IMG/VR virus record: IMGVR_UViG_3300035161_000034
Location: 1-53,650 of that record
From: a virus
DNA: 53,650 nt
Direction: 5' to 3' (one strand)
The translations under genes were made by a program, and so were the position numbers. Numbering within the stretch: position 1 is the stretch's first letter; every line of letters begins with the position of its first letter. The notes beneath the pieces are model-generated. The model made no database searches, was not told the DNA's origin, and was given only the letters and a program-made list of their open reading frames with translations. This document shows positions 1,333 to 41,054 of this stretch, in pieces.

Positions 1333-2259
1333 ATGAGTAAGAAAACCACCACCAAAAAAGACTTGTATCAGGAAATAACCGACCGCATCGTGGCCTACCT
1401 TGAGAAAGGAGTCAAGCCGTGGGAAAAGCCGTGGCATGCAGCATCCAAGCATGGTCATGTATCCCGGCCATTGCGCTATAACGGCGAGCCGTATCAGGGC
1501 GTAAACGTGATCAATCTGTGGATGTCGGCAATGGAGCAGGGCTTCAGCACACCCATATGGATGACCTACAAACAGGCAGAATCATTGGGCGGTCAGGTCC
1601 GTAAGGGTGAGAAGGGATCGCTGTCGGTTCGGGCTGGTACGTTTCTTAAAACCGAACAGGACCGTAATGGGGATGAAGTGGAAAAGACACTGCGATTCCT
1701 GAAACGATTTGCCGTATTCAATGTGGATCAGATCGACGGATTGCCGGACAAATACTATGCAACACCGGACGAACTGGTGCCGTTGAGTGAGGATGAACGT
1801 ATTGACCGCGTGGATCAGTTTTTCAAAAACACCGGTGCATCCATTCAGCATGGCGGAGCCAGTGCGTTCTACAGTCCGACGCATGACTTTATTAACATGC
1901 CACCGTTTGAACGGTTCTTTAATCGGGAGAGCTATTACGCGACACTGGCGCATGAAACCACCCACTGGACCCGGCACAAGTCACGGCTTAACCGCGACCT
2001 TGGCCGCAAGTCTTGGGGCGATGCCGGGTATGCGATGGAAGAACTGGTGGCGGAACTGGGGGCGGCATTCTTATGTGCCGATCTTGCGATTACACTGGAG
2101 CCGCGTGATGATCATGCCGACTACATTGGCGCTTGGCTGGAAGTCCTGAAGAAGGACACCCGCGCCGTGTTTACCGCAGCCAGCCACGCCACCAAAGCGG
2201 TGACCTACTTGCACGAACTACAACCGGGCAGTGAAGTATCTGCACGCGCCGCTGCTTGA
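1333..2259 (+). CDS. ardC: ArdC-type antirestriction protein (ssDNA-binding domain plus zincin-like domain)
   Basis: The N-terminal ~125 residues fit the ArdC N-terminal ssDNA-binding domain (DLYQEITDRIVAYLEKGVKPW, then YNG-PYQGVNV, then PIWMTYKQA, G-VRKGEKG). The C-terminal half is the zincin-like metallopeptidase domain with HETTH followed by a downstream glutamate in EELVAELGAAFLC. Length (308 aa) is normal for the family. ArdC proteins protect incoming DNA from type I and some type II restriction, which fits an early phage gene. It starts 6 bases after AAGGAGA and has its own strong promoter at 1260-1288. Family assignment is confident; protease activity is unproven. Confidence 0.92.
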   Translation: MSKKTTTKKDLYQEITDRIVAYLEKGVKPWEKPWHAASKHGHVSRPLRYNGEPYQGVNVINLWMSAMEQGFSTPIWMTYKQAESLGGQVRKGEKGSLSVRAGTFLKTEQDRNGDEVEKTLRFLKRFAVFNVDQIDGLPDKYYATPDELVPLSEDERIDRVDQFFKNTGASIQHGGASAFYSPTHDFINMPPFERFFNRESYYATLAHETTHWTRHKSRLNRDLGRKSWGDAGYAMEELVAELGAAFLCADLAITLEPRDDHADYIGAWLEVLKKDTRAVFTAASHATKAVTYLHELQPGSEVSARAAA

Positions 2260-2356: not shown

Positions 2357-3178
2357 ATGACAAAATTTTATTTACCAAACGGCATGACCAACGGGCTTGA
2401 GGTTGAATGGCTGCATGAATTCACACTACAGCGACGTTTTATTAACGCGCTGAATGAATCATCCAAGGCACCGGCATCGAAGTCACTATATGACAACCGC
2501 TTTGTCGGGACGCTGAATATACGGCTGATACATGATGAAGAATTGACATGGAAATGCCACACCTATCTGGCTGCCACGGACTGCACAATGGCAATGATAT
2601 TGAACCAGACGACCCACGCACTGTGCTTCGATGAATCAACTGAAACACCAACTATCGCGGAGTCGGTGGAGTTTAACGTGTCGCTGACAGCCCTGTACCG
2701 GTTTATGCAGAACTTCCCGGCGAAAGAAGTACACAAGGTGCTGATATCCGTTGTCAAATATGTCAATGGCTCATATGAGATCTATGCATCATGTAATACC
2801 GATTGCATCGAGCTGGCTCTATTGGATATCGTGTATCCAAACGTAGCCAAAACCGTACCAGATCACATATCGGAAGTGACTGCGTATTTTTCCGACGCAA
2901 CACTGGAAAAGGTGCTGAAGATTAATAATTTTCTTAAAGGTAAAACAAATGCGAAGGGCGCGGTATCGGTTATGATTCGGCATAATGGTAATCGATCCAA
3001 CGTGGTATCACTGAATGACGGCGATTGTGTGCTGGTCATCATGCCGGTTAGATTAGGCAAGTCGGATGATGAGGCACTGAATAATGAATTCCGCTATCAA
3101 CAATCGTGGGTAAAGCATATGTGCGAGGCCAAATCACAACGAATTACCGACAGGATGGACATGCGCAAGGCGGGTTGA
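2357..3178 (+). CDS. Possible truncated DNA sliding clamp (DnaN-like) or unknown early protein
   Basis: 273 aa. Residues 105-168 follow the pattern of the second half of DnaN domain 2 (hydrophobic strand, helix TALYRFMQNF, strands, then LLDIVYPNVAKTVP, compare LVDGRFPDYRRVLP). Residues 224-233 (CVLVIMPVRL) match the C-terminal VVMPMRL of bacterial beta clamps. The region between is much shorter than DnaN domain 3, and about 40 residues extend past the clamp end. If correct it would be a shortened polymerase processivity clamp for the phage family A polymerase. This is a by-eye inference; the resemblance could be chance. It starts after ACACAAAGGAGA, and its stop codon shares its last base with palindrome copy 2. 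Confidence 0.4.
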   Translation: MTKFYLPNGMTNGLEVEWLHEFTLQRRFINALNESSKAPASKSLYDNRFVGTLNIRLIHDEELTWKCHTYLAATDCTMAMILNQTTHALCFDESTETPTIAESVEFNVSLTALYRFMQNFPAKEVHKVLISVVKYVNGSYEIYASCNTDCIELALLDIVYPNVAKTVPDHISEVTAYFSDATLEKVLKINNFLKGKTNAKGAVSVMIRHNGNRSNVVSLNDGDCVLVIMPVRLGKSDDEALNNEFRYQQSWVKHMCEAKSQRITDRMDMRKAG

Positions 3179-3197
3179 ACTGGTATTTCTACCAGTT
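3178..3197 (+). repeat. Intergenic palindrome, copy 2 (TTTC centre)
   Basis: Identical 20 bases to copy 1. Its first base is the last base of the TGA stop of the 2357-3178 gene. An ACACAAAGGAGA leader follows 18 bases later. Confidence 0.9.
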
Positions 3198-3234
3198 CTG
3201 AAGAATTACTTAATTACACAAAGGAGATTTGAAA

Positions 3235-3564
3235 ATGACTGACAGAACTATTCACCCTGAAAGAATTATTTTGCCGGTTGACGGCGAGCCGGACTTGGCA
3301 TTTACCGGTACATTATTGGCAAAGGTTTTGGATAACGATGAACCTGATGATGAATACTGGACCATACTGGCGTTGTATATTACGACAAAAGGTCAGTATG
3401 TAATTCATCGCACAGATGACTCGCGCCGGTCGAATTATCCTGCGATCCACCTTGCAAAAGTATGCAGCACACCGCAAGAAGTGATTGAGTTTCTCGGTCA
3501 AGATACGTTACCGAAAAGACTGTACGAAGCGGCCAGCATTCCTAACATCCGTGAGATCGAGTGA
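3235..3564 (+). CDS. Conserved hypothetical protein of plasmid/phage type
   Basis: 109 aa. The ATG at 3235 is preferred over the TTG at 3229 because it sits 8 bases after AAAGGAG. The core (EYWTILALYITTKGQYVIHRTDD, then TPQEVIEFLG) resembles small proteins often found near ardC genes on plasmids and integrative elements, as far as I recall. Function unknown. It belongs to the small-gene group sharing the ACACAAAGGAGA leader. Confidence 0.8.
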   Translation: MTDRTIHPERIILPVDGEPDLAFTGTLLAKVLDNDEPDDEYWTILALYITTKGQYVIHRTDDSRRSNYPAIHLAKVCSTPQEVIEFLGQDTLPKRLYEAASIPNIREIE

Positions 3565-3571
3565 GGCTGAC

Positions 3572-3805
3572 ATGAACCTTAAACAGAAAGACCTGTTGAT
3601 GTTGACGCGAAAAATTGGCGGCTATACGCCTGCGCCGAGGTATCAAATGACGGAATCCGAGTGCCAAGCACTATGCGGGTTACACAACCTTGGATTTGCA
3701 AAAGTCGCCCCGGACTGGAGCTTTATGCTAACGAAACAAGGGGAAGCAAAAGCGGATGAACTGATCAGACAAGGAGATAACCTATGCAACCACGACTCAA
3801 TCTGA
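3572..3805 (+). CDS. Hypothetical small protein, 77 aa
   Basis: The ATG at 3572 lies 7 bases after the previous stop with a GTGAGG site. A longer in-frame start at 3485 would overlap the previous gene heavily and is not favoured. The sequence (two helices, ESECQALCGLHNLGFAK, then W and LTKQGEAKADELI) looks like a small winged-helix or DNA-binding fold, but no family is recognised. Its 3' end overlaps the next small gene by 22 bases. Confidence 0.65.
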   Translation: MNLKQKDLLMLTRKIGGYTPAPRYQMTESECQALCGLHNLGFAKVAPDWSFMLTKQGEAKADELIRQGDNLCNHDSI

Positions 3806-10202: not shown

Positions 10203-12608
10203 ATGGGCGAGATCAAACTACTAGCTTTCGATCTGGAAACTCCGCAGGTTGAGCCGAGTTATGGCCTGCAACCGTGGCGGCTGAAGACCGGTGAAGCGGT
10301 GATTCAGAGCTATGCCGCATGGTCGGAAGACGGCATTATTTGCGGCGCGAAAAAGCGGCCATCCGTTGCCCTGCTGCGGGGATTCTTGCAACTTGCCGCC
10401 GTCAGGGGTTACACGCTGGTCGGCTGGAATGTGCTGTTCGATGTGGCTTGGCTGGTCGCTGCCGGGTTAATGCCGGAATTGAAAAAATGTCAGATTCTTG
10501 ACGCCATGCTATTATTAAAGCACGTCGATCCGTGGCTGGACAAGGCGCACGGCGGACCCGGCTTCGGGCTGAAGTCGGCAGTCGCGCGAGCTTGGCCGGA
10601 ACATGCCGCGTATGCGGCTGAAGTCGATGTCACGCTGGTGCCTGAGACTGCGGAAGAATGGACGCGATTGCTGCGCTATAACCTCGACGACAGCCGCTTT
10701 ACCGGTCGGCTGGCGCGGGAATATCTCAACGTACTATCACAGTCTGAGATACAGAACTGCCTGATCGAGGCAAGTTCGATCCCGGATGTGGCGCTGTCAT
10801 ACATCAATGGCATCCACATCAACGAGGCGGCAATCAAACCGTTTCGCGAGCAGGTGCAGATCATGCAGGATGAAGCCATGCCGGTGTTCGGCGCGACGGT
10901 TGATGTAGTTCGATCCCCGAAAAAACTGGCCGAACTGCTGTTCGACAAGTGGGGGTACGAGCCGGTCGGCCAAACCAAGACCGGCAATCCGTCAACGGAC
11001 AAGGAATCGTTGATGAAACTGGCGATTGAAAACCCGCAGGATGAACGCTTTGCCGCGTTGATGAAACTGCGTAAGTGCAACACCAAAAGCAGCAAGTTTT
11101 TAGGTGGCGTAATCAAGGCAATGGAATACCACGGCGAACCGGTGGCACGACCAGCACCGGCGATTTCCGGCACGATGACGGGACGCTTTGTTTATTATTC
11201 GACGCAAGGCAAGAACAAGGGGCTGATTCAGACCGGCATCGCCCTGCACCAGTGGGAACGCGACCGCGAAACGCGCGATCTGTTGACCGCGCCACCGGGG
11301 TATCTGCTCGCGGAGTTTGACTTTTCCGGGCAGGAAATGCGCCTGATGGCAATCCTGTCGGAAGACGATGTGATGCTGGATCTGTTCGCCAATGGCGGCG
11401 ACGGCCATGCCTACATGGGTGCCAGCATTGAAGGCGTGGATTATGACTGGGTGCGGCAAAAAGCGGATGTGGATAAGAACGCCAAGGCGATCCGCAACCT
11501 TGGCAAGTTTTGTGTGATGGAAGGGCAACCGGTGCTGACCGAGCGTGGACTGGTGCCGATTGAAAAGATCCGGCTGAACGACCGGGTGTGGGATGGCGTG
11601 GAATGGGTGACTCATTCCGGCGCGGTCTATCAAGGAGAATGCGATGTCATGTACTACCAAGGAATCTGGCTTACCCCGGACCACTATGTCTGGTGTGAGG
11701 GACGACATGAGCCGGAAAGATTTTACCAAGCTGCATCCCAAAGGCTACAACTCACTCGTACCGGAAATGGTGGGCGTAAAATTCGGTGCGTGGACGATTG
11801 TATCCGACGAGATTACCCGCAGCCCGAACCATCCCCGCACCGTGCGGGTGAAGGTCAAATGCGGCGGGTGCGGCACCCGGCAATGGATTACGCTGTCCAG
11901 TCTGATCGACCACCAGTCGAAGTATTGCACCCGGTGCAGCGTGAAACGGCGACCCAAGGCGACGATCCAGCTATTCAATCTTTCCAAACCCAAAGTAATG
12001 TAGCCGTATGGGATATTACCAATGCCGGACCGCGCCGCCGTTATACCGTGTGCGACCGGCTGGTGAGCAATTCCAACCTGTCGTTGCAGTACCGGATCGG
12101 GGTGGATTCGATCATGTCCCGCGCGTTGACGCAATATAACCTGCAACTCTCAAGGCATAAGGCGCAGCATATCAAGACGACCTACCTGCAAACTTACAAG
12201 CAGGTGCCGCAGTACTGGCATCAGGCGATTAACCGGGCAACCATGAAGAAGTATGCCGAATCACTGGGCGGACGGCGCATCCCGCTGACCGATCTGAATG
12301 TGTACCAGCAGCAGCAGACCGCGATCAACTTTCCGATTCAGGCGACCGGCGGCGATATGAAGGCGCTGGCACTGGCGGTTTCGCGCAATCTGTTCGATAA
12401 TGACTTCATTTATGCATGGGATCTGCATGACGCCTTGTTCGTGTACGTGAAGAACGATCAGAAGGCAAAGGGGCGTATCCTCGCCATGCAGAAGATTTTA
12501 AGCCACCTGCCATACGGTGCGGCATGGGGCTGGCATCCGAGCATTGATTTGCCGGTGGACGCCAAGGTCGGCAGGACTTGGGGCACATTAAGCGCCGTAC
12601 AATCATAA
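10203..12608 (+). CDS. polA: Family A DNA polymerase with 3'-5' exonuclease, interrupted by an intein
   Basis: 801-residue precursor. Residues 1-175 are a DEDDy proofreading exonuclease: FDLET (D10, E12), GWNVLFD (N76, D80), YNLDD (Y159, D163). Polymerase motif A is FDFSGQEMRLMA (D373), and motif C is LHDALFV (H742, D743). Motif B (O helix) is RNLGKF then SNLSLQYRIG, and the intein (C437-N623) lies between those two halves. Removing it gives a 614-residue polymerase in which K435 and Y630 are 8 residues apart, as K758 and Y766 are in E. coli Pol I. The residue equivalent to Phe762 is Leu626. It replicates the phage genome with the PrimPol-helicase and SSB-like protein. Confidence 0.93.
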   Translation: MGEIKLLAFDLETPQVEPSYGLQPWRLKTGEAVIQSYAAWSEDGIICGAKKRPSVALLRGFLQLAAVRGYTLVGWNVLFDVAWLVAAGLMPELKKCQILDAMLLLKHVDPWLDKAHGGPGFGLKSAVARAWPEHAAYAAEVDVTLVPETAEEWTRLLRYNLDDSRFTGRLAREYLNVLSQSEIQNCLIEASSIPDVALSYINGIHINEAAIKPFREQVQIMQDEAMPVFGATVDVVRSPKKLAELLFDKWGYEPVGQTKTGNPSTDKESLMKLAIENPQDERFAALMKLRKCNTKSSKFLGGVIKAMEYHGEPVARPAPAISGTMTGRFVYYSTQGKNKGLIQTGIALHQWERDRETRDLLTAPPGYLLAEFDFSGQEMRLMAILSEDDVMLDLFANGGDGHAYMGASIEGVDYDWVRQKADVDKNAKAIRNLGKFCVMEGQPVLTERGLVPIEKIRLNDRVWDGVEWVTHSGAVYQGECDVMYYQGIWLTPDHYVWCEGRHEPERFYQAASQRLQLTRTGNGGRKIRCVDDCIRRDYPQPEPSPHRAGEGQMRRVRHPAMDYAVQSDRPPVEVLHPVQRETATQGDDPAIQSFQTQSNVAVWDITNAGPRRRYTVCDRLVSNSNLSLQYRIGVDSIMSRALTQYNLQLSRHKAQHIKTTYLQTYKQVPQYWHQAINRATMKKYAESLGGRRIPLTDLNVYQQQQTAINFPIQATGGDMKALALAVSRNLFDNDFIYAWDLHDALFVYVKNDQKAKGRILAMQKILSHLPYGAAWGWHPSIDLPVDAKVGRTWGTLSAVQS
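11511..12071 (+). mobile_element. Intein in polymerase motif B, without in-frame endonuclease
   Basis: 187 residues, C437 to N623. Block A is CVMEGQPVLTERGLVPIEKI, with Cys at position 1. Block B is around GIWLTPDHYVW (the TxxH pattern T-P-D-H). Block F/G is VWDITNAGPRRRYTVCDRLVSN, followed by Ser as the +1 residue. The residue before the final Asn is Ser rather than the usual His. The part between blocks B and F has no LAGLIDADG or HNH motif in this frame and is low in protein character; another frame there encodes a separate gene. A functional splicing element is inferred because the polymerase would be dead without excision. Confidence 0.88.
11707..12003 (+). CDS. Zinc-ribbon protein gene nested inside the intein, different frame
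   Basis: 98 aa in the +1 frame relative to the polymerase; ATG at 11707 with GAGGG 6 bases upstream. The pattern VGVKFGAWTIVSDE, then VKVKCGGCGTRQWITLSSL, then KYCTRCS matches small phage proteins (GxxFGxWTV ... CxCG ... CxxC) often found beside HNH or homing endonucleases. Four cysteines (CGGC, CTRC) probably bind zinc. The gene begins just after intein block B and stops at the codon before block F. No nuclease residues are seen. It may be a DNA-binding helper left from, or inserted in place of, an endonuclease. Confidence 0.7.
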   Translation: MSRKDFTKLHPKGYNSLVPEMVGVKFGAWTIVSDEITRSPNHPRTVRVKVKCGGCGTRQWITLSSLIDHQSKYCTRCSVKRRPKATIQLFNLSKPKVM

Positions 12609-13011: not shown

Positions 13012-13027
13012 TTTGGAGAGATTAATC

Positions 13028-13291
13028 ATGCCGAAGAAATATCCCCGTAATTACAAACGCGAACTGGAGTTGCAGAAAAAACGCGGCGACGACAAGAACA
13101 AGGCGCTGCGCATGAAGGCGCGGCGGAAGATGGTTAAACTCGGCTTGGTTAAAAAAGGTCAGGACGTAGACCATAAAAAGCCACTCAGCAAAGGCGGCGC
13201 GGCAACAGCCGTCAGCAACCTACGTGCGGTTTCACCCAGTAAGAACCGCAGTTTTAAACGCACCAGCAAAGGTGCTATCAAGGGAGACTAA
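13028..13291 (+). CDS. Small HNH nuclease-like protein, 87 aa
   Basis: ATG at 13028 after GGAGAG. The N-terminal half is very basic (KKYPRNYKRELELQKKRGDDKNKALRMKARRK). The C-terminal half has the short phage HNH signature DVDHKKPLSKGGA, then SNLRAVSPSKNRSF, with D48-H49, N64 and N73 in place. It looks active. Possible roles are nicking, packaging support or homing; the position in a replication operon does not decide. Confidence 0.85.
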   Translation: MPKKYPRNYKRELELQKKRGDDKNKALRMKARRKMVKLGLVKKGQDVDHKKPLSKGGAATAVSNLRAVSPSKNRSFKRTSKGAIKGD

Positions 13292-28556: not shown

Positions 28557-28573
28557 AAAGTAGTTATCTACCT
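28557..28573 (-). repeat. 17-base late-region hairpin repeat, copy 1
   Basis: On the - strand AGGTAGATAACTACTTT, a 6-bp stem with an ATAA loop, placed over the stop codon of the giant gene. The same 17 bases recur at 49348-49364. Confidence 0.8.
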
Positions 28574-31500
28574 TCCGCCAGCCGCTCTCGTAAAGCTGCC
28601 GTAGGTAGTCCGCTAAACGCCGTCTGCAACCGGTAAGCATCCCGGACACTGGTTGCACCCGGTGTCTGAAGTACTTGAGCCAAGTCCAGCTTGCGCTGTT
28701 GGTTGGTGACGATCCTTGCCAGATCGAAATCACCGTGATCCGGGTTACGGGTCTGGAATGCAATCAACTCCGCTGCCTTGGCGTTAATCGCGTCCCGATC
28801 CCCGGATTCAATAGCTTTCACCATGTCCCGCCCCAGTTCAGTCTTACGCGCCGCCAGCAGTCGTTGCTGCGTGGTGAACGAACGCGCGTTGCGCTGAAAC
28901 TCAGTCTTGATTGCCGGGGTGAAATTAAGGAATTGCGTCATGATCTCCCAGTCCGTGGCGGCGATAGGTAGTTTGTTACCTTTCATGTCCGTATAGCCAT
29001 TCATGAGTAGATCCGGTCCTTTGACAAATCCCTGCAACGCGGCAGGTAGCATCATTGCCATACCCTTGAAAATGTCACCGTCCGCCATCTTCATCGCACC
29101 TACCCCGATATTCGTCATCGCGCCGATGGACGGTCCTAAAGTACTTAGCGCCAATGAGTCTAGTTTATCGGAAAATTCGCGCCGGTCGCGCAGAAATTCA
29201 GACGCAGGTAGTAGATCACCTAACGATAATCGCGTGGATAACGTGGTGCCGGTCAGTGGGTCAATCGCACCGTGGGCAATCATGTTCGCGGCATCCGGCC
29301 CCAACATATCCGACAGGAAGTGGGTAAAGTCAGCGCGAAGTTCGCGTGGATCGTCATCATCGCCCAGTCCGTTATACACCGCTGCAATCGCGGTCATAAA
29401 CGGCAGGCCCATCGCCCCGGCCAGTGTCATCGTCGCGACCATCATACCGGCCAGCGAGCGCCGCGCGGCAATCTTGTCTTCAAGCGATGCATTGCCAAAC
29501 GCCTGTGTCGAAAGATCCACAAGTAGTTGGATCATCTGCATGTTGAATTGCATGAACCCGGTGAACAGCGGCGTCAGCTTACCGAAGATGCCGTTCTTGG
29601 AGAACGCATAGCCCCGGTTGGCCGGGTCGTAGTTGAACTGAGTCCGGTCGATGGTGAACTCGGCAAACCGTGCCGCGTCAAGGACGCGCTGATCGTCGCT
29701 GGCTTCCGGGTTAAGTTTTTTCAGCCGTTCGTATTCCAGATTGAATGCGGCAAGGCCGGTCACCAGCCGGTTCGCGGCTTCGGAGTAATGCGACATCGCA
29801 CCGAACAGTTTGACCGCGACTCCGCTTGACCGCGCGTCCGCGCCCTGTTCCACCCGCGCCAGTCCGTGCGCTTGGGTGAATTCCACCACCCCGGAGTCCA
29901 CCAGAATATGCAGTGCGCGGGTCTGCTGTTTGGACAGCCCGGCCCGGTCAACAATAATGTGGGCGTCAAGTACTCCCTTCCAGCCTTTGCCATCTACCCA
30001 TCCTTGCGACACGGTATCCTTGAGTACTTTGGATATGCTCTGGTACGTGTTGAACATCGTGCTGGCCGTCTTGGTGAAGCCGAACTTGCCGCCAAGCACC
30101 GGCAATGTGGTCTGGAACGGTTGCGCCATATTCGCCACGATGTACGGAATATTGCTTGCCAGAAACATCGAATAGCCTATCGAGGACAGATGGTCCAGTG
30201 TCGGGGTGGACAGCGGCTTCAATGCATTGTTATGGCGTTTCTTGATATGGTTGAACATATCCTGCGCCATTTCCCGGACGCGCGGATCAGCGGTCGGATC
30301 TTGCCGCATCGCCGTGATCTCGGCACGAAACGATTTCAGGGCTTCCATCACCTCCGGCTGTGCGGTATTCTGCGCGACGAAAAACATGTTCGCGCGGGAC
30401 CGCTTCACAAAATTGCGGCGCATATCCAGCGAGTAGCCCGGTGTGCCCTTGCGTCGGGCCAGTGCCTTGCCGCCTGACATTTCCGGCAGCATTTCCACCA
30501 TTGTGCGGCGGATCAACTCCTTGGTCTGTTCGCGGAATTCTTCATCCAGATTGGTGTTGGTGTCGATTTTCACCAGCACGTTTTGCATGAAGCCGACATT
30601 GCTGAAGTCCAGCTTGGAAATGTTTTCCTCGATCTTGCCGCTGGAAACCTTGTCAATATGCCCTGCCGCCTGTAATTGCTTCAGGGCGCGATCCTGCGTC
30701 ACCCAAGACGAGTATGTCTCGAAGCGGTTGAACACATGGTCGGCATCCTCTGACACAAACGCTTCACTGCGCAAGCCGGTTTCTTTAAGCATGGCCTGCA
30801 CCGCCTGCTGCGCTTCCGGGTTTTTCGCGATGTCATACTGCACGAAATAATCCCCATGCCGCCCCAAGTGGAAATACGGCCCTTGCAGGCGGCTGGCACG
30901 GAAGTCGCGCATGTTCTGGATCGTCAGCCGCGCCGGTTCGCCACCGGTATTGATAACCTCGCGTTCCAACTGCGTTACCGCGTTCTTGAAGCGCATGCGG
31001 ACCTTCGCATCGTCACTCACCGCGTCTTGCGGATTGACTTCGCGCCAGCGGTCTTTCGGCACTTCAAAGGTAAACGCGACACTGCGCAACAGCGAGCCGT
31101 ACGTCATTTCCAGATCGCGCTCATTATGCGCGATGGCCTTGTCGTACACCGCCGCAATGCCGGGCTGGTTGTACATCGTCTGCAATTTGTTGTACAACTG
31201 CCGGTTCTTGGATTCGTTCTCGTCGTGCAGCCACGGCTGATTGCGAAACGGCTTGTTCGGATAGATGCCAAGCCGGGTGGATTCGCCAGCCAGTTCATTA
31301 AAGACAGCCTGCGATTTTTCCGGCAACCGCGCCATTTCCTGCTCCCGCGCCGACAGATCCTTGCCATGCTTGGCGACCGTCGCCGACGCCACCCGTTCTG
31401 CGCGGTTCTGTTGGGTGATCGCGTCCTGCACTTCCTGATTGAATATCCGGGCATGGTAGGACGCCAAGAAGTTACCGGTGGAAAGTTCCAGTCCGCGCCG

Positions 31501-34500
31501 GTTCAGCCAACCCGTCACCGCCGGTTTGTAATTGTCCACCGCCTTCGCCAGCGACGACAGTATACCGTCCACCTTGTCCATTGCCTGCGCTGGAGAGGTG
31601 TTAGGTTTGCTGGAGAGCCGGATGTCCGGTGCCAGCGGTGCCGTTGGCCGTTGCGCATTCAAGACCTGACTGTCTGCGGCCAGTCCCGCCTCGGTCGCCC
31701 CGGCGACAATTTCCTCAACGGCGGTATCGGTCAGATTGAAGTTAATGCCGAACACGTCATACAGCCATTGCGATACCGCGTTATAAATCCGTGAAAACAG
31801 ATTCACCGACCGCGCCTCACCCACTTTCGCCATGTCCGCCAGCACTTCCTCGATGGCTGTCAGTTTCAGCGTCATCGGACTGTTCTGCAAGGCGGTGCGC
31901 GCTTCACCCGTGCGGCTGTTCAACAGATCGGCCTGATATTGTTTCACACGGTCACGTACCAACTGGTTGCGGTCATAAATATCCAGCAGGGCGCGGTTCA
32001 TGCGGCTACCGAATACGGTGCGCAAACCCTTATGCGCGGCTTCGTGCAGTGCGACAAATACCGCCTCACGCGGCGAATGAATATTCTCAGCCAGCAGCCA
32101 GATTTGATCCTGTTGACCTGTGGCATCGCGACTTAAGAACATGCCGCGCGTCAGGTGCCCTTTGTCGATATTTGCAACCAATTCCTGTCCGGCCTTGGGC
32201 AACTGGTCAACCGATTCGGCAATGCGAATCACCGGCCCACCTTTACGCTGCAACGGGGTGATGGCCTCAAGTATCTGCGACCGCGACAACGGTTGTTTTG
32301 GATCGGCGGGATCAGCAATCCCGACCCCGGATCGCAGATCGGGAATCGTATTTAACCGGGTTGATTCCATCGCCGCGCGGTGTGCGGCCACCACATCGCC
32401 ACCCTGTTCAAAATCCGCACTCGGGCGGGTGTATTCATTCAGCAATGACTCACGCAATTCAATCGTGTCAACGGCGTTCTGCACCATCTCCGCCGGGGGT
32501 GTATTGTCGATCAGCCCGGCATTGATCGCATGGCTCACTACATCCGGGTGGCTCTGAATGATCTCAACCAGTGCTTGTTCCTGCTGCGGAGTCAGTTCTT
32601 TCACCAGCCGCTTTAACAGGTTGTCGGATACCCCCGGCACCAGCGATTGTTCTTCATGATGAAAACGAAAGTTATCCTGTGGCCGGGTGCGCAGCACCAG
32701 CCGGGTCGATTCCGTAACCGGGATCTTAGCCAGAATTTTCTCGCGTAATACATCGGTCATCAGCCCGGCCTGCTTGATCTTCAGCTTGGCACTGATCGCG
32801 TTCAGATCCGGTCGTCCGGCCACTGCGACAATCTGCTGTGCGGTTTCCGTATGCAGGCCATCAGTCACGGCGCGTTTAACGATTTCAGCCTGTGCGCGGC
32901 GCACCAGTTTTTCCCGGTTGTTAATCGCTTTAACTTCCATCGCAGCGATAATGCGTTCAACATCCGCATCGGATTGCGTGGCAAGATCCTCAACCACCAG
33001 TGCATCAGCCCCGGATTTAATATCCGCGACGAATTCCGCCACTTCTTCATTGGTCAATTCAGATGTCAACTGCGGTGCGGTTGCAACCGTTTTCAAACGC
33101 GGTTGTGGCTGACGGCTCTGCGCCAATAACTGCAAGGTCTTGGCATTGGTCAGTACGGATGAATAACCGGTGCCTTCGGTCTGCATCTCGGCAATCAGGG
33201 GCAGCGTGGCATAATTCTGCGGTTTGCGTACCCCGGCACCGGTAGCTACACGGTCAAGATCCTTACGAGGGAGTTTCAACAACTGGTCGGTATCCTGCAC
33301 ATTGACCATGCCCAGTCCCGGCGCATCGACAAAACGCGATTTCACCAGATTGACCAGTGTTGGCGGGGTGATCTGCCGTTTTGCCTGCTCAATGACGAGC
33401 AGGGACGTTCCCGGTTGAACCCCGGTGTTTTCCGCCGTTTCCGTGTTTTCTTCCGAAGCCTGATTTGGATTCGGCAATAAACGGCTATCGGTATACAGAT
33501 CGGCAGGGGTTAATCCTTCCAGAAAATTACGCGGTGCCGACGTTGACTCCTGCCCGGCTTGCTGCTGTGACTTCGGCTCACGCCTGAGCGTATCCCCCCG
33601 GATCGCCTCGGTTTTCAGCCGCGCTCCGACCGTCACTTCAATAATCTTATCGGCAATTTGCTGCTTGGTATCCCGACTGGTTACATGGATGTCCAACGCC
33701 TTCGCCAGCTTGACATGATCCTGCTTGGTCTTGACTTCACCGGCCAGCAAGGTTCGAGCGGCATCTCGGTCAGCGGCATTCGTCAGGCGTTCGGGCAATG
33801 CCCCAGTGCCCAAGTTTGCCTCGGTTTGCTTGTCGTTGATTTCATTGACATTCTCAACGCCCAAGTTTGCCTCAGTTTGCCCGGTGACAGGCGGTGCCTT
33901 ATCATCCGTATCCGATTCGCCAAGGGCGGCGGCAATCGCCTCGCCTTGCGTCGGGGTCGAATCTTCATTGGTGCTAAAGTCAATCGGGCCGGTATCACCT
34001 TCCACGGGTGGTTCGGTCGATGCGACCAGTTTTTCAATCAGCGTGTCACGGGTATCCTTGGCTTTGACATCAATGCCGTTATCACGGCCATACTTAAACA
34101 GCGCCGCCTTCTTCAGCGAGCGATCTGCCTTCATGTCGGTCACGCTTGCCGGAACCGTCTTTCCGTTAATCTCAAAGTTCGGGATGACTTCATCCTCGAT
34201 CAACCCCGAATTTTCGGGTGCTTGAGGCGCTCGTTCTTCAACCTGTGTTTGTGGTATGCCCTGCGCGGCTAACGGCTCTGCTTCGACCGTTGCGTCAACT
34301 TCAACCGTCGGCAGCGGTGTTTCACGACTGGCCGGTATTCGTGGTGCTTTTGGCACCCCTTCCAGTTTCGGCAACGGGGCTTTTTCCTCACGGTTCAGCG
34401 CAATCTCACTGTCCGGCAGCAGTGGTGCCACCTCAGTCAGGTCCAGATCCGGCAGGAAGTCACCCCGCGCGGCCAACGCCTCCCGCGTCAACTCACCCGT

Positions 34501-36177
34501 CGGCTCCTGAATACTTGCACTTGCGGCCAGTGCCTCGGCAATCTGCCGGTCCTCCCGGCTTATGGGTTGTGCTTCGCCGGTCAACTGCGCCAGTACCCGC
34601 CGTGCAACGTCCGCGTTATCCGGGTTATTGCGGTTCTTGGCAAATTGCTCGATGGTCGCATTTAAGCCGCTGATCCGTTCTTCGTCGGTCGCCGCATTGA
34701 GATTCTTTTTGATCCGGGCCAGTGCCTGCTTGGACGGCTGCAACACATCATCTTCGACCGTTACTGCATTCTGAATCAAGGCATCCACGCGGTTCTTGTT
34801 GGCATCCTGCACGGCTGTCCGTACCTGCTCAAGTCGGGCTTCTTCCGCCGCGCGTAATACTGAGGTATCCCCGGCCTTGCGGCGCAAGCCAAAGATCAGA
34901 TCCGCATCCGATACACCCTCGACATCCAAGCCGACCTGACGTGCCGCTGCCTGCAACGTGGCGCGATTGGCCGACCCGATCACCGACGGCGGCAAGGTTT
35001 CAATCAGGTTACCGTCATCGTCAGTACGGCCATAGGTATTAACCCCTTCAACAATCCGCGCGACTTTCTTGTCATCCACATCGGTAGGCGCTTTAGCCGG
35101 TTGCGGCACTGCCGGTTCCGATGTTTCCGCCGCTTTTTCCCGTTCAGCCGCCGCCAGTTCATTGCGCCGCTGCTCAGCTTTCTCCATCCGCGCTTCGCGG
35201 GTGGCATTCACCTGCCCGGTCACACCGCCAATCGTGCCACCCACAGCAGCACCGATCACCGCACCTTCTACGGCGGATTCAAGCGCATTGACCAGCAGGT
35301 TGTCCAGTTTTGCCGCCGACGGATCGACAAAGGTGCCAGTGGTCAGATCCTGTGCGATGGACTCCAGCGCCGATTGTGAAAATTCCTGCACCGCTTCGCG
35401 CCCGGCCCCTTTCGTACCGGCCTTCAACAGCCCGGTTGACGCGGTGACCGATTCGTCAAACACACCCCCCGCCGATCCTTTCAACAGCCGACCGGCAAGG
35501 GCTGAGCCGCCCAACGTCGCCAAGGCGTTACCAGTCGCACCGGTCAGCATGGCTTGACCTTTCAGTTCACTACGGGCCTGTGCATCGCGTTCATTGTCCG
35601 GCAAACCGTCATACTTCGCGTACGCATCGCGGAATGCCTGCGAGGTCTGCAACAGGTTCGCGGTCGAACGGTTCTCGATACTGGACGCCTGATTCGATGC
35701 ACCGCCTGCCGCAGACAGCCCGGCTTCGGTTGCAACCGAGCCTGCACCCAGTCCAATCGCCCCGCGCGTGGCTGCACGAATGCCTAAACCGCCGACACCG
35801 GCGGCTGCGGTACTGGGCAGCGCCCTTGCGCCTTGGATCGCGAGAAACCGCGACAATGGGACATCCCCGCCAAATCCGAACACGCCAACATCGCCGATGC
35901 CCGAATCAAACGCCTGTTGACCTGCCGGAGATAGCGAGGCTGTCCGTTCTTGAACTGCCTGCTGGTGCTTCTGGCGGAATTCCTGTCCAATCCGTTCCAG
36001 CGGTCTGCTGCCGCTGGCGGCACCAATCGCCTCGGGGATTGCACCCAGTGAGCCGACCAGTTCCTGTGCGCCGGACAGGGCTGACTTGCCGACATCCGAT
36101 AACGTGATGCCGTTATCGCGGCGGCGTGGTTGAAATTCCGGTAACGGAGCAAAGAACTGACTGGTATCAATCGCCAT
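28564..36177 (-). CDS. Giant internal virion / DNA-ejection protein (PLxRFG-like), with zincin-like motif
   Basis: 2537 aa. Residues ~75-320 hold Gly/Ala-rich hydrophobic segments (AAAGVGGLGIRAATRGAIGLGAGSV; GAVIGAAVGGTIGG) suited to membrane insertion. Between ~690 and ~1130 are repeated short SAP/Rho-N-like helical units (GIDVKAKDTRDTLIEKL; LDIHVTSRDTKQQIADKI; LREKILAKI). HEAAH at 1378-1382 fits a zinc-peptidase motif. The C-terminal third (SIGYSMFLASNIPYIVANMAQPF, FGKLTPLFTGFMQFNMQMIQLL) resembles large phage polyvalent proteins ejected with the DNA. Probably forms or uses a channel through the host envelope. Polymerase motifs of N4-type virion RNA polymerase were not found. Confidence 0.75.
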   Translation of the reverse strand: MAIDTSQFFAPLPEFQPRRRDNGITLSDVGKSALSGAQELVGSLGAIPEAIGAASGSRPLERIGQEFRQKHQQAVQERTASLSPAGQQAFDSGIGDVGVFGFGGDVPLSRFLAIQGARALPSTAAAGVGGLGIRAATRGAIGLGAGSVATEAGLSAAGGASNQASSIENRSTANLLQTSQAFRDAYAKYDGLPDNERDAQARSELKGQAMLTGATGNALATLGGSALAGRLLKGSAGGVFDESVTASTGLLKAGTKGAGREAVQEFSQSALESIAQDLTTGTFVDPSAAKLDNLLVNALESAVEGAVIGAAVGGTIGGVTGQVNATREARMEKAEQRRNELAAAEREKAAETSEPAVPQPAKAPTDVDDKKVARIVEGVNTYGRTDDDGNLIETLPPSVIGSANRATLQAAARQVGLDVEGVSDADLIFGLRRKAGDTSVLRAAEEARLEQVRTAVQDANKNRVDALIQNAVTVEDDVLQPSKQALARIKKNLNAATDEERISGLNATIEQFAKNRNNPDNADVARRVLAQLTGEAQPISREDRQIAEALAASASIQEPTGELTREALAARGDFLPDLDLTEVAPLLPDSEIALNREEKAPLPKLEGVPKAPRIPASRETPLPTVEVDATVEAEPLAAQGIPQTQVEERAPQAPENSGLIEDEVIPNFEINGKTVPASVTDMKADRSLKKAALFKYGRDNGIDVKAKDTRDTLIEKLVASTEPPVEGDTGPIDFSTNEDSTPTQGEAIAAALGESDTDDKAPPVTGQTEANLGVENVNEINDKQTEANLGTGALPERLTNAADRDAARTLLAGEVKTKQDHVKLAKALDIHVTSRDTKQQIADKIIEVTVGARLKTEAIRGDTLRREPKSQQQAGQESTSAPRNFLEGLTPADLYTDSRLLPNPNQASEENTETAENTGVQPGTSLLVIEQAKRQITPPTLVNLVKSRFVDAPGLGMVNVQDTDQLLKLPRKDLDRVATGAGVRKPQNYATLPLIAEMQTEGTGYSSVLTNAKTLQLLAQSRQPQPRLKTVATAPQLTSELTNEEVAEFVADIKSGADALVVEDLATQSDADVERIIAAMEVKAINNREKLVRRAQAEIVKRAVTDGLHTETAQQIVAVAGRPDLNAISAKLKIKQAGLMTDVLREKILAKIPVTESTRLVLRTRPQDNFRFHHEEQSLVPGVSDNLLKRLVKELTPQQEQALVEIIQSHPDVVSHAINAGLIDNTPPAEMVQNAVDTIELRESLLNEYTRPSADFEQGGDVVAAHRAAMESTRLNTIPDLRSGVGIADPADPKQPLSRSQILEAITPLQRKGGPVIRIAESVDQLPKAGQELVANIDKGHLTRGMFLSRDATGQQDQIWLLAENIHSPREAVFVALHEAAHKGLRTVFGSRMNRALLDIYDRNQLVRDRVKQYQADLLNSRTGEARTALQNSPMTLKLTAIEEVLADMAKVGEARSVNLFSRIYNAVSQWLYDVFGINFNLTDTAVEEIVAGATEAGLAADSQVLNAQRPTAPLAPDIRLSSKPNTSPAQAMDKVDGILSSLAKAVDNYKPAVTGWLNRRGLELSTGNFLASYHARIFNQEVQDAITQQNRAERVASATVAKHGKDLSAREQEMARLPEKSQAVFNELAGESTRLGIYPNKPFRNQPWLHDENESKNRQLYNKLQTMYNQPGIAAVYDKAIAHNERDLEMTYGSLLRSVAFTFEVPKDRWREVNPQDAVSDDAKVRMRFKNAVTQLEREVINTGGEPARLTIQNMRDFRASRLQGPYFHLGRHGDYFVQYDIAKNPEAQQAVQAMLKETGLRSEAFVSEDADHVFNRFETYSSWVTQDRALKQLQAAGHIDKVSSGKIEENISKLDFSNVGFMQNVLVKIDTNTNLDEEFREQTKELIRRTMVEMLPEMSGGKALARRKGTPGYSLDMRRNFVKRSRANMFFVAQNTAQPEVMEALKSFRAEITAMRQDPTADPRVREMAQDMFNHIKKRHNNALKPLSTPTLDHLSSIGYSMFLASNIPYIVANMAQPFQTTLPVLGGKFGFTKTASTMFNTYQSISKVLKDTVSQGWVDGKGWKGVLDAHIIVDRAGLSKQQTRALHILVDSGVVEFTQAHGLARVEQGADARSSGVAVKLFGAMSHYSEAANRLVTGLAAFNLEYERLKKLNPEASDDQRVLDAARFAEFTIDRTQFNYDPANRGYAFSKNGIFGKLTPLFTGFMQFNMQMIQLLVDLSTQAFGNASLEDKIAARRSLAGMMVATMTLAGAMGLPFMTAIAAVYNGLGDDDDPRELRADFTHFLSDMLGPDAANMIAHGAIDPLTGTTLSTRLSLGDLLPASEFLRDRREFSDKLDSLALSTLGPSIGAMTNIGVGAMKMADGDIFKGMAMMLPAALQGFVKGPDLLMNGYTDMKGNKLPIAATDWEIMTQFLNFTPAIKTEFQRNARSFTTQQRLLAARKTELGRDMVKAIESGDRDAINAKAAELIAFQTRNPDHGDFDLARIVTNQQRKLDLAQVLQTPGATSVRDAYRLQTAFSGLPTAALRERLAEGR

Positions 36178-37452: not shown

Positions 37453-39231
37453 TTATAAACTCACTACTAAGGTGTTGGTAAAGGAATTCGACCACGCCTC
37501 GATACTGCGTGCTTCTTTCAGATGCGTGGTGTTATGCGAGGTGTTGAACGCGGTCGAATTCGACGTCGATTCGGACGTGCTGTTATTGTTGCTGATCGAA
37601 TGCTTGCTGATTTCCGCAGCCGCCAACTGTCCGTCAATCTGCCCTTTCTGCCGTTCGTTGGCCTGTTGAATATTTGACGCGGCGACAATCGTACGGGCAC
37701 GGGCCAAGATGGACTGCGCGGTAATGCTGGAACACAACAGATCAACATCGGCGCTGATCATTTCACCCTTGGCGGCAAGCCCGGCAATATCGCCGAGCGC
37801 ATCAAGGCGCACACTCTCAACATCGACATGCGCGGCAATCGCCGCCGTATCTGCCGCTATCTGCGCGGCCTCCGCCGCAATGACCGACACAAACGCATCC
37901 ACCTCTGCCGCCAGTACTTCCGCCGGGAACAACGCATTCACATTGACATCCGCTTCCAGTTGCGCGATCTGTGCGCGGACGACCGCCCCGTACGCATCCC
38001 CCTGCGCCCGGTACGCCTGCGCTTCAGCAACATAGGCATCCACTTTCAGCCCTTCAGCGGCGACCTGCGCCCCGTACGCCTGCTGTGCAATATCGTCGGC
38101 TTCGACGGTTGCCTTGTATGCTTCCAGCCGCCCTTTAAACACATCCAGCCGTGCAGTGTTGACTTCGGCCTGCGCTTTCGCGGCTTCCACCTGTGCGCGG
38201 AACACTTCGACCTGCGCGTTAATGCCTTCCAGCCGTCCCAAGTACACCTTAACCTGACTCTCGTTCAGTTTCGCTACCACCTGCAAGGCTTCCAGTTCGG
38301 CGCGGTAAACCTCCAGCTTCGCCAGTTCCGCTTCCAGTTGCACCATGAAAATCTCGGCACGGACCCGGAACACCTGTGCGTCCACTTCATACAGGCTGAC
38401 TTCCGCGTTAAACAGTTTCACCGCCAGCTCTACCGCTGCGGCACGGCCTTCCAGTTCGCGCTGCTGATACTTGGCATGATTGTCGATGCGCATGGATTCA
38501 AACTTCAGAATCGCATCTACCGCCGCGCGGAAGTTTTCCTGCTTCAGCCGCGCGATTTCGATCTTGACTTCCCGGTCGAGCGACTGTTCTTTCATCATCC
38601 GTGCATGCAGGGCGCGTTGTGCGAAGTCGATTACGACCGCCTGCGGCACCTTCAGACCGCGCGATTTCACCACCTGCGTGACCCGGCTGACCATGCTGTT
38701 ATACAGTTCATCCTGACGGCTCCGGGCGCGGTTCCAGATCGCGTCCTGCACGTCGATCACCACACCCGTCGAATCATTCTCGACAAACTCCAGCAGCCGG
38801 GTTTCAATGTCCTGACTCAGTTGCGTGGTCAGATCCGCGTTCACCCAGTCAAACGTCGCATCCGGGGCATCCGGCAGCGTCGGCGCTGTCGCGTCAAACG
38901 ACGGCAGGTTCAACGTCGGCGCAGTCGGCAGATCCAGTGACCGGATCGTCGGCACCGGCGGCAGCGTGAAGTCCGGGGCGACCGGAATTTCGATCACCGA
39001 TAAGCCCGGCTCTGCTGGTAATGATGGCCGGACAATATCCGGGATGGTGATACTGGACAGCATCGGGCGGGTAACATTGAAGTCCGGCACCGTGCCAATA
39101 CTCAATGGCGTCACGTCGCCCAGTTCCGGGCGGGTCGGTGCGACCGGAAAGGTTGGCGTCAGACATTGAATACTGTCAGCAATATCCGGTAATGTAATAT
39201 TTGCAGGTGTTATTTGCGCATTGCAAGTCAT
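37453..39231 (-). CDS. Long coiled-coil virion protein, paralogue of its neighbour
   Basis: 592 aa. Residues ~15-120 are a proline-rich beta region with spaced IPD, PxLP and FxLPxxP elements. Residues ~130-480 are almost continuous heptad-like helix (AQVEVFRAQVEAAKAQAEVNTARLDVFKGRLEAYKATVEA; YVAEAQAYRAQGDAYGAVVRAQIAQLEADV). The tail is Ser/Asn-rich (ISNNNSTSESTSNSTAFNTSHN). Domain order is the same as in the 39228-41054 protein. A long helical fibre or tail rod is likely. ATG overlaps the neighbour's stop (ATGA). Confidence 0.65.
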   Translation of the reverse strand: MTCNAQITPANITLPDIADSIQCLTPTFPVAPTRPELGDVTPLSIGTVPDFNVTRPMLSSITIPDIVRPSLPAEPGLSVIEIPVAPDFTLPPVPTIRSLDLPTAPTLNLPSFDATAPTLPDAPDATFDWVNADLTTQLSQDIETRLLEFVENDSTGVVIDVQDAIWNRARSRQDELYNSMVSRVTQVVKSRGLKVPQAVVIDFAQRALHARMMKEQSLDREVKIEIARLKQENFRAAVDAILKFESMRIDNHAKYQQRELEGRAAAVELAVKLFNAEVSLYEVDAQVFRVRAEIFMVQLEAELAKLEVYRAELEALQVVAKLNESQVKVYLGRLEGINAQVEVFRAQVEAAKAQAEVNTARLDVFKGRLEAYKATVEADDIAQQAYGAQVAAEGLKVDAYVAEAQAYRAQGDAYGAVVRAQIAQLEADVNVNALFPAEVLAAEVDAFVSVIAAEAAQIAADTAAIAAHVDVESVRLDALGDIAGLAAKGEMISADVDLLCSSITAQSILARARTIVAASNIQQANERQKGQIDGQLAAAEISKHSISNNNSTSESTSNSTAFNTSHNTTHLKEARSIEAWSNSFTNTLVVSL

Positions 39232-41054
39232 CGGCAGTTCCCCAAATGTGGTCCGCGACCGGACGTGTCGATGGCGATCCCTTCCAGCGATTGCGAGTTG
39301 ATGACATTGTTCGAGGACGATTCTGCCGACGAACTAATGCTGACACAGGACTTGGTGTCGGAATCATTGAACGACTCGGACGTTGTTCGGGAGGTACTTC
39401 TTGAAATATTGCGCGACTGATTGAAGGTTTCCACCGAAATCGTCGCGGCTTCCGCCATTGCCTGCGCTTGCAGTTCGGCACGTACAATGGTCGCATCCAG
39501 TGCGTCGTTAGCCACTTCAATACGGTCGTTGGCGTCGATCCGCGCATCACTGACACGCTGACCGGCCAATGCCGACTTCATGTTCGCACCTTCGCTATCC
39601 ATCCGGGCAGACTCCGTTTTTATCACTGACGAAACACTCGCCTTGTACAACTTCGCTAATTCGCCCTGAATACCGCCTACGGCCTCAATTCTACTCCTTT
39701 CGGCATCGACTTGGGCCTTAAATGCATTATTCTGTTGTTTATATACTTCCAGCGGTGCCTTCTGGTTCGCGTTAAATTCCGCCAGTTGCGCCGCAACCTG
39801 TGCATCCACCAGTGTTTTATATACTTCCGCCTTGTCCCGGTGCGCCTCGGCTTGCGCGGCGAACGAGGTGAACCGTTGCGTTTCCGCCTTAATCTGTTCC
39901 ACGAAGCCATCGACTTTAGACTTCTCAGCCAGCAATGAGTACTTGGCTCCATCTACTTGAGATCGGTATTTCTCCGCGTTATTCAGATCGGTCTGCACCT
40001 TGATCTTCGCCGCCTCGACATTGCTCTTGTAAATGTTGACCTGCGCTTTAACGCCTTCCACCTGCGCCACATACAGATCCACCGCCGCCTGATCCAATTC
40101 CGCAATCAGTTGCCGCGCCTCCAGTTGCGCCTTGAATACCTCCAGCTTCGCCAGTTGCGCTTTCAGATTGGTACGGAACACATCGGCCAAGGTGGAGAAT
40201 ACCTGCACATCGACCCGCGCCAGTCCCAAGTGTGCGTTAAACAATTCAATCTTACTGTTCACCGCGATTTTCGCCGCATCCAGTATGCGCTGCTGCATGC
40301 GGTTATGGTCCTCGAACACCAAGGCTTGCTCCTGAATCCCGGATACCATGCCAAGCAACATGTTTTGCTGCTCCAGCCGTACCTGCTCGATCATCAGCTT
40401 GCGCGATTCTTCCGACGCCTGATCGACACCGGCTTCAAACTGGTCGGCGATTTGCCGCAAGGCCGCGCCGCCCGGCAGGATATGCCCCCGGCCACCATGC
40501 GCTTCAAAGGTTTTCGCCACGACATCCTGATCCACCTTGGCCGGGACATCCCGCGCCTTGTCCGCGATCAGGGCTTCAACATCCGGCGGCAGCGCGGTTG
40601 CCAGTCCCAAAATAAACTGCGACTGCTTCAACGCCAGATTGGTCAGTAACTGACTGCTGTACGCCTGATCACTCCAGACAAATGATTCGCTCTCCGGGAT
40701 TAACGGTGCGGAACGGAATACCTCGTTAAACACCGGCAGATTCACTACCGGTTCATCCGGGATGTCCAGACTCAACAGTGTCGGTACATCCGGCAAGGTG
40801 ATGGTCGGCGCTGCCGGGTTTTCCACCACCGTCAGATCCGGCGCTTCCGGCACCGGCCCGGCCAACGGATTCGGAAACGTAATCGTCGCCAGTAACGGCG
40901 GCTGCGAATCGAACTCCGGCGCATCCGGGATGTTCAGGCTGGCTATCGGTTGCGTCGTCACATTGCCGGTAAATGTTGAGAATTCAAAACTGCCAGCGGC
41001 GGCAACCGCGTCCGCTACGGCAGTCACCAGTACATCAGAGCCTAAGCAAGCCAT
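39228..41054 (-). CDS. Long coiled-coil virion protein, paralogue of its neighbour
   Basis: 608 aa with the same layout as the 592-aa neighbour: proline/beta-rich start (NIPDAPEFDSQPPLLATITFPNPLAGPVPEAPDL; TLPDVPTLLSLDIPDEPVVNLP), then ~350 residues of helix (FKAQLEARQLIAELDQAAVDLYVAQVEGVKAQVNIYKSNVEAAKIKV), then a Ser/Asn-rich end (SRSTSRTTSESFNDSD). Both share YVAQVEG / YLGRLEG-type heptads, so they arose by tandem duplication. They may form a hetero-oligomeric fibre. TAATG overlap with the preceding gene. Confidence 0.65.
   Translation of the reverse strand: MACLGSDVLVTAVADAVAAAGSFEFSTFTGNVTTQPIASLNIPDAPEFDSQPPLLATITFPNPLAGPVPEAPDLTVVENPAAPTITLPDVPTLLSLDIPDEPVVNLPVFNEVFRSAPLIPESESFVWSDQAYSSQLLTNLALKQSQFILGLATALPPDVEALIADKARDVPAKVDQDVVAKTFEAHGGRGHILPGGAALRQIADQFEAGVDQASEESRKLMIEQVRLEQQNMLLGMVSGIQEQALVFEDHNRMQQRILDAAKIAVNSKIELFNAHLGLARVDVQVFSTLADVFRTNLKAQLAKLEVFKAQLEARQLIAELDQAAVDLYVAQVEGVKAQVNIYKSNVEAAKIKVQTDLNNAEKYRSQVDGAKYSLLAEKSKVDGFVEQIKAETQRFTSFAAQAEAHRDKAEVYKTLVDAQVAAQLAEFNANQKAPLEVYKQQNNAFKAQVDAERSRIEAVGGIQGELAKLYKASVSSVIKTESARMDSEGANMKSALAGQRVSDARIDANDRIEVANDALDATIVRAELQAQAMAEAATISVETFNQSRNISRSTSRTTSESFNDSDTKSCVSISSSAESSSNNVINSQSLEGIAIDTSGRGPHLGNCR

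Follow-up and report, generated by a model that had tools for sequence, protein, structure and literature searches.

Textbook inteins are single proteins that both splice and home. In bifunctional inteins a LAGLIDADG or HNH endonuclease is encoded in frame between blocks B and F of a HINT domain, which is inserted at a conserved site of a replication enzyme. The intein described here shares the HINT blocks, the conserved replication-enzyme site and the position between blocks B and F, but its endonuclease belongs to a separate gene, in another frame and with its own start, and the linker in the intein frame is predicted to be disordered. It resembles mini-inteins in having a splicing domain without an in-frame endonuclease domain. 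In contrast to the true mini-inteins of its family (110-143 aa), which have lost theirs, its linker retains the remnant of an overlapping endonuclease gene.

Out-of-frame HNH insertions have already been reported recently. In the ShiLan domain and in Pacc40 gp60 an out-of-frame HNH gene lies hidden inside a phage gene whose host frame stays open, and the in-frame product is disordered, as here (PMC11855218, 2025). These insertions, however, lack intein blocks and are considered non-splicing, and ShiLan is without an identified ribosome-binding site (PMC11855218), whereas our locus has splicing motifs. A single sentence in PMC4422536 proposes an out-of-frame intein-encoded HNH in a brucellaphage terminase, which would be the same architecture in another host gene; no analysis of frame or selection accompanies it. 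In phage APSE-1 (NC_000935), GenBank has the HNH endonuclease P46 nested in +1 within the polymerase P45, which carries intein blocks. That case differs in its complete HNH, in its insertion site and in a nested frame that begins further 3'. In the searchable literature we found no account of an out-of-frame HNH as the norm throughout a clade of splicing inteins; part of such a picture may be covered by a 2025 preprint of Gosselin et al. on non-canonical intein architecture (10.1101/2025.01.02.630785).

The sequence analysed was a virus record of 53,650 bases, referred to as the window. Our reading, to which we give a probability of about 0.86, is that it carries an overprinted two-gene mobile intein in a copy that illustrates endonuclease loss, that probably still splices and whose nested remnant is likely decaying. 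The features of the polymerase frame (frame 0) are as follows.

10203..12608, + strand: family-A DNA polymerase precursor (open reading frame; Pfam DNA_pol_A, 1e-41; PHROG_17 DNA polymerase, 1e-48)
11511..12071, + strand: intein of 187 aa, C437-N623 (splicing blocks; Xp15 empty site; predicted intein fold)
11511..11549, + strand: block A (CVMEGQPVLTERG) with the nucleophile Cys1 (conserved alignment columns)
11661..11696, + strand: block B (GIWLTPDHYVWC) with T55 and H58 (invariant alignment columns)
11778..11990, + strand: in-frame intein linker, predicted disordered, a by-product of the nested frame (pLDDT ~50; frame-0 dN/dS of ~1 or higher in relatives)
12000..12050, + strand: block F (VAVWDITNAGPRRRYTV) (alignment of splicing blocks)
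12051..12071, + strand: block G (CDRLVSN) with the terminal Asn187, followed by Ser at +1

The precursor has 801 codons and would yield 614 aa after the predicted splicing. The intein sits in polymerase motif B, between F436 and S624, and the sequence contains it just as the original prediction described, with all four blocks in frame within the 801-aa reading frame. Frame 0 thus holds the HINT elements expected of an intein: blocks A, B, F and G, Cys1, TxxH, the terminal Asn and a Cys, Ser or Thr at +1. The penultimate residue of block G is Ser rather than the usual His, and other inteins at the same site also vary here (F, S, A). When the exteins are joined without the intein (RNLGKF|SNLSLQYRIG), they align without gaps to the uninterrupted site of Xanthomonas phage Xp15 (RQLGKL|TNLSCNYRIG); the insertion is therefore precise, and the host polymerase is continuous once the intein is removed. 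An AlphaFold model shows an intein (HINT) fold in which residues 1-88 and 163-187 have pLDDT ~97 and residues 90-160 pLDDT ~50. Solved inteins rank best when this model is compared with the PDB, NpuDnaE coming first (probability 1.00, top E 1.7e-3). On these sequence features and the predicted fold the window intein is probably competent for splicing.

Several other reading frames of the window were recorded. About 400 bases 3' of the polymerase gene lies a small HNH-like frame (13013-13291, + strand; PHROG_4590, E 7e-13; weak Pfam HNH), possibly a small HNH protein of the kind usual in phages and a candidate trans-acting nuclease. Two adjacent frames of similar size on the - strand, 37453-39231 and 39228-41054, both match PHROG_10969 (unknown function) and form a tandem paralogue pair. 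A single frame of 2537 codons (28564-36177, - strand) takes up ~14% of the window, and 1333-2259 (+ strand) gives a strong match to the anti-restriction protein PHROG_7245 (E 1e-102).

Overlapping the intein in the +1 frame are the following features.

11632..11637, + strand: Shine-Dalgarno sequence AAGGAG of the nested gene (6 nt upstream of ATG 11644)
11644..12003, + strand, frame +1: nested gene of 119 codons plus TAG (62-bit profile match; alignment of nested proteins)
11764..11937, + strand: zinc-ribbon region of the nested protein (EMVGVKFG ... CGGC ... CTRC; four invariant Cys)

The original prediction had placed a free-standing zinc-ribbon gene at 11707-12003. Its end stands, as the frame is closed by the TAG at 12001-12003, immediately 5' of block F. 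The start does not: one at 11707 is possible but weaker, and ATG 11644 is the better choice, its AAGGAG having the same position and spacing as in L039, an intein at the same polymerase site. The gene is also not an independent zinc-ribbon gene but a truncated HNH endonuclease gene. A profile of 245 positions, made from nested HNH genes with the window copy left out, matches the window's nested protein with 62 bits, its positions 2-100 aligning with residues 6-107. This homology bears out the claim that an out-of-frame gene occupies the endonuclease slot. By sequence, the nested gene corresponds to an HNH homing-endonuclease gene without its nuclease core: what remains encodes the N-terminal segment and the zinc ribbon. 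Both CxxC pairs of the N-terminal zinc ribbon are present, so that all four of the Cys invariant among 31 nested proteins are retained. The catalytic core found in relatives (YGxRGI ... DRIDNxGxYxxGNxR) is deleted in this copy, and the implied role of a 98-aa product as a working endonuclease is not supported. Three inteins at the same site, L038, L039 and L061, are 325-326 aa long and contain full nested genes; the window intein has 187 aa, and therefore ~140 codons have been deleted, in multiples of three.

The truncated gene might still be functional, its 119-aa zinc-ribbon protein binding DNA, with the polymerase site as one conceivable target, and so acting as a repressor or competing with intact homing enzymes. 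The intact AAGGAG and ATG, the four Cys and the open frame of 119 codons all fit such a role, as does the similarity of the zinc ribbon to its relatives, which is higher in the nested frame (0.33) than in frame 0 (0.19). Against it, the window copy has lost the glycine of the LxSGxS motif that nearly all relatives have. Furthermore, end points differ among the other deletion derivatives that can be read (L034, L040, L062, L140 and L153), and a whole zinc ribbon on its own is kept in none of them; there is therefore no recurring zinc-ribbon-only class. We regard a retained function as unlikely. To judge from its sequence, the 119-aa remnant is most likely decaying; that the zinc ribbon stays closer to its relatives than frame 0 does and keeps its four Cys counts against decay.

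A +1 reading frame of this length occurs in 6% of synonymous recodings of frame 0 (P = 0.06), so its length by itself is unremarkable and it could at first sight be a chance open frame across the linker of an ordinary mini-intein. It is more than that because of its homology to nested HNH genes: the 62-bit match covers 102 of 119 residues of the window copy. In addition, when the intein and the nested protein were searched by tblastn against phage genomes, both matched the polymerase of Gardnerella phage AB1 at the same place and with the same +1 offset (E 5e-4 for the nested protein against the intein there). A chance frame is thus ruled out, with only a negligible probability left to it. In Pfam and NCBIfam the nested proteins have no match above the cut-offs, only weak zinc-finger and DUF matches below them; Foldseek with a model of the L039 nested protein gave no significant match in the PDB, and phmmer with the APSE-1 nested protein gave no match there. 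No close relative of the window copy turned up in IMG/VR when it was scanned for exact peptides of the window proteins and for one DNA pattern; the contig scan yielded one distant locus.

Related inteins were collected mostly from IMG/VR, by scans with splicing-block alignments, and otherwise from phage records, and 125 distinct inteins in phage contigs were read in six frames with HMMs (HNH profile cut-off >60 bits). The census covers relatives of the window intein rather than inteins at large, and contig ends truncate a few loci. Complete out-of-frame HNH endonuclease genes of ~200-290 codons were found in phage polymerase inteins, and the nested proteins of the relatives match the HNH endonuclease families PHROG_374 and PHROG_3377 with E 1e-16 to 1e-55. 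Of the 125 inteins, 89 have the HNH gene in +1 (a number that includes the window copy as well as L034 and L040, both deletion derivatives), 16 have it in +2 and 6 have HNH fragments. The remaining 14 have no HNH gene; where their end could be measured, they are mini-inteins of 110-143 aa. Neither frame 0 nor the minus strand holds an HNH gene in any of the 125, and an HNH-type endonuclease domain in the intein frame, the mark of a bifunctional intein, is likewise absent from the window intein. The locus, predicted as a singular case, is therefore one of many: 105 of the 125 score well for an out-of-frame HNH gene, and the proposed search for relatives with and without the nested gene has found both kinds.

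In full relatives, substitutions in the overlap are most frequent at codon position 3 of the nested frame, which is frame-0 position 1 for +1 genes and position 2 for +2 genes; in blocks A-B, which do not overlap, the maximum is at frame-0 position 3. Median dN/dS in the +1 group was 0.12 for the nested frame against 1.59 for frame 0 of the same DNA (nested lower in 56/56 pairs), and in the +2 group 0.12 against 0.94 (lower in 9/9 pairs), values obtained by the Nei-Gojobori method, which is biased for overlapping frames, from pairs that share sequences, with a uniform direction throughout; all pairs were drawn from relatives of the window copy. The nested frame in the relatives is under strong purifying selection. 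No frame-0 stop occurs in 65 nested regions, where shuffling of synonymous codons leads one to expect 9.5 per +1 gene and 6.0 per +2 gene. With its high dN/dS and absence of stops, the linker therefore drifts freely yet must remain translatable, as expected if the precursor is translated across it and then spliced. The codon-substitution test suggested with the original prediction has thus come out for the nested frame, and the family as a whole shows neither a +1 frame broken by stops nor selection on the polymerase frame only. Together with the pLDDT of ~50, the selection in relatives upholds the idea that the in-frame linker is a by-product of the second gene.

Most +1 genes share a conserved start, at nucleotide offset 133 or 145 of the intein, which AAGGAG or AAGGAGGT precedes by 6-8 nt. 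Of 67 distinct inteins, 43 have an ATG with a Shine-Dalgarno match of >=5 nt; 10.9 would be expected under synonymous recoding of frame 0. From these signals we infer that the nested gene is translated by internal initiation on the polymerase mRNA. Two compensating shifts, from sequencing or assembly errors or recent frameshifts, could imitate the pattern in one sequence by displacing the in-frame endonuclease of an ordinary bifunctional intein; an identical offset recurring in dozens of independent contigs and isolates, conserved internal starts and a stop-free frame 0 leave this explanation hardly credible, and it is rejected. HNH genes are known in phage polymerase introns, for example I-PfoP3I (PMC3428280), but a group I intron with an HNH gene in place of an intein is rejected as highly improbable: frame 0 conserves all four splicing blocks and has no stop over ~250 codons, its junctions match the empty site in register, and an intein fold is predicted.

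In a tree of the intein blocks, built on few columns, the +1 inteins, the mini-inteins of their clade and the window form one group with support 100/99, and the +2 grouping is weakly supported (59/76). Mini-inteins are scattered among the full forms (supported branches require 5 or more label changes), and loss of the nuclease gene has therefore been repeated. The existence of two frame classes points to two or more origins. Several forms occur at the same polymerase site (L038, L039, L061, the window and L173). An early stop in the nested HNH frame with an intact polymerase frame was observed in L010 (Streptococcus phage PhiSdyV1524, locus 3140-3733), which is a copy at an early stage of endonuclease loss. 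The polymerase genes at L050, L141 and L164 apparently have two inteins each, and in some of them the downstream intein contains a second nested HNH gene. Four inteins of the family (L060, L062, L068 and L071) have exteins unlike PolA motif B (junction ...|CIDYAD/CVDYA); the overprinted form has therefore spread to other genes or sites.

The overprinted two-gene reading is supported directly by the anatomy and homology of the locus, by selection on the nested frame of the relatives, by the conserved translation signals and by the truncation in the window, and we infer splicing, nested-gene translation, DNA cutting and homing as follows. Frame 0 encodes a small HINT domain that would splice itself out. 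Over its loop, where ordinary inteins have a fused endonuclease, lies an HNH homing-endonuclease gene in +1 that brings its own ATG and ribosome-binding site. Intact relatives would make the HNH protein by internal initiation; it would cut motif B of polymerase alleles that have no intein, and repair would copy the whole element so that the DNA spreads, while splicing in frame 0 would restore the essential polymerase. In the window, a multiple-of-three deletion took out the ~140 codons and with them the nuclease core, leaving the polymerase frame and splicing blocks unharmed, and the nested frame is now closed by the TAG before block F. With its cutting part lost, the copy is presumably not mobile by itself. 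Very likely, this large clade of phage inteins consists of two overprinted genes, one for a splicing protein and one, in +1 or +2, for an independently initiated HNH homing endonuclease, the latter being repeatedly lost by in-register deletion, and the window represents one step of that loss.

Homing and splicing would here be separate genes on one stretch of DNA, a parallel to introns with open reading frames but at the level of protein. One-frame annotation pipelines overlook dozens of endonuclease genes, and all frames of intein 'linkers' of the overprinted type should be read. If the reading is true, an intein could be mobile without having the endonuclease as one of its own domains. The finding bears on the long-standing question of how endonuclease genes come into inteins and are lost from them: the set includes full, partly deleted and mini forms, several of them at one polymerase site, and the cycle of gain and loss is therefore directly testable.
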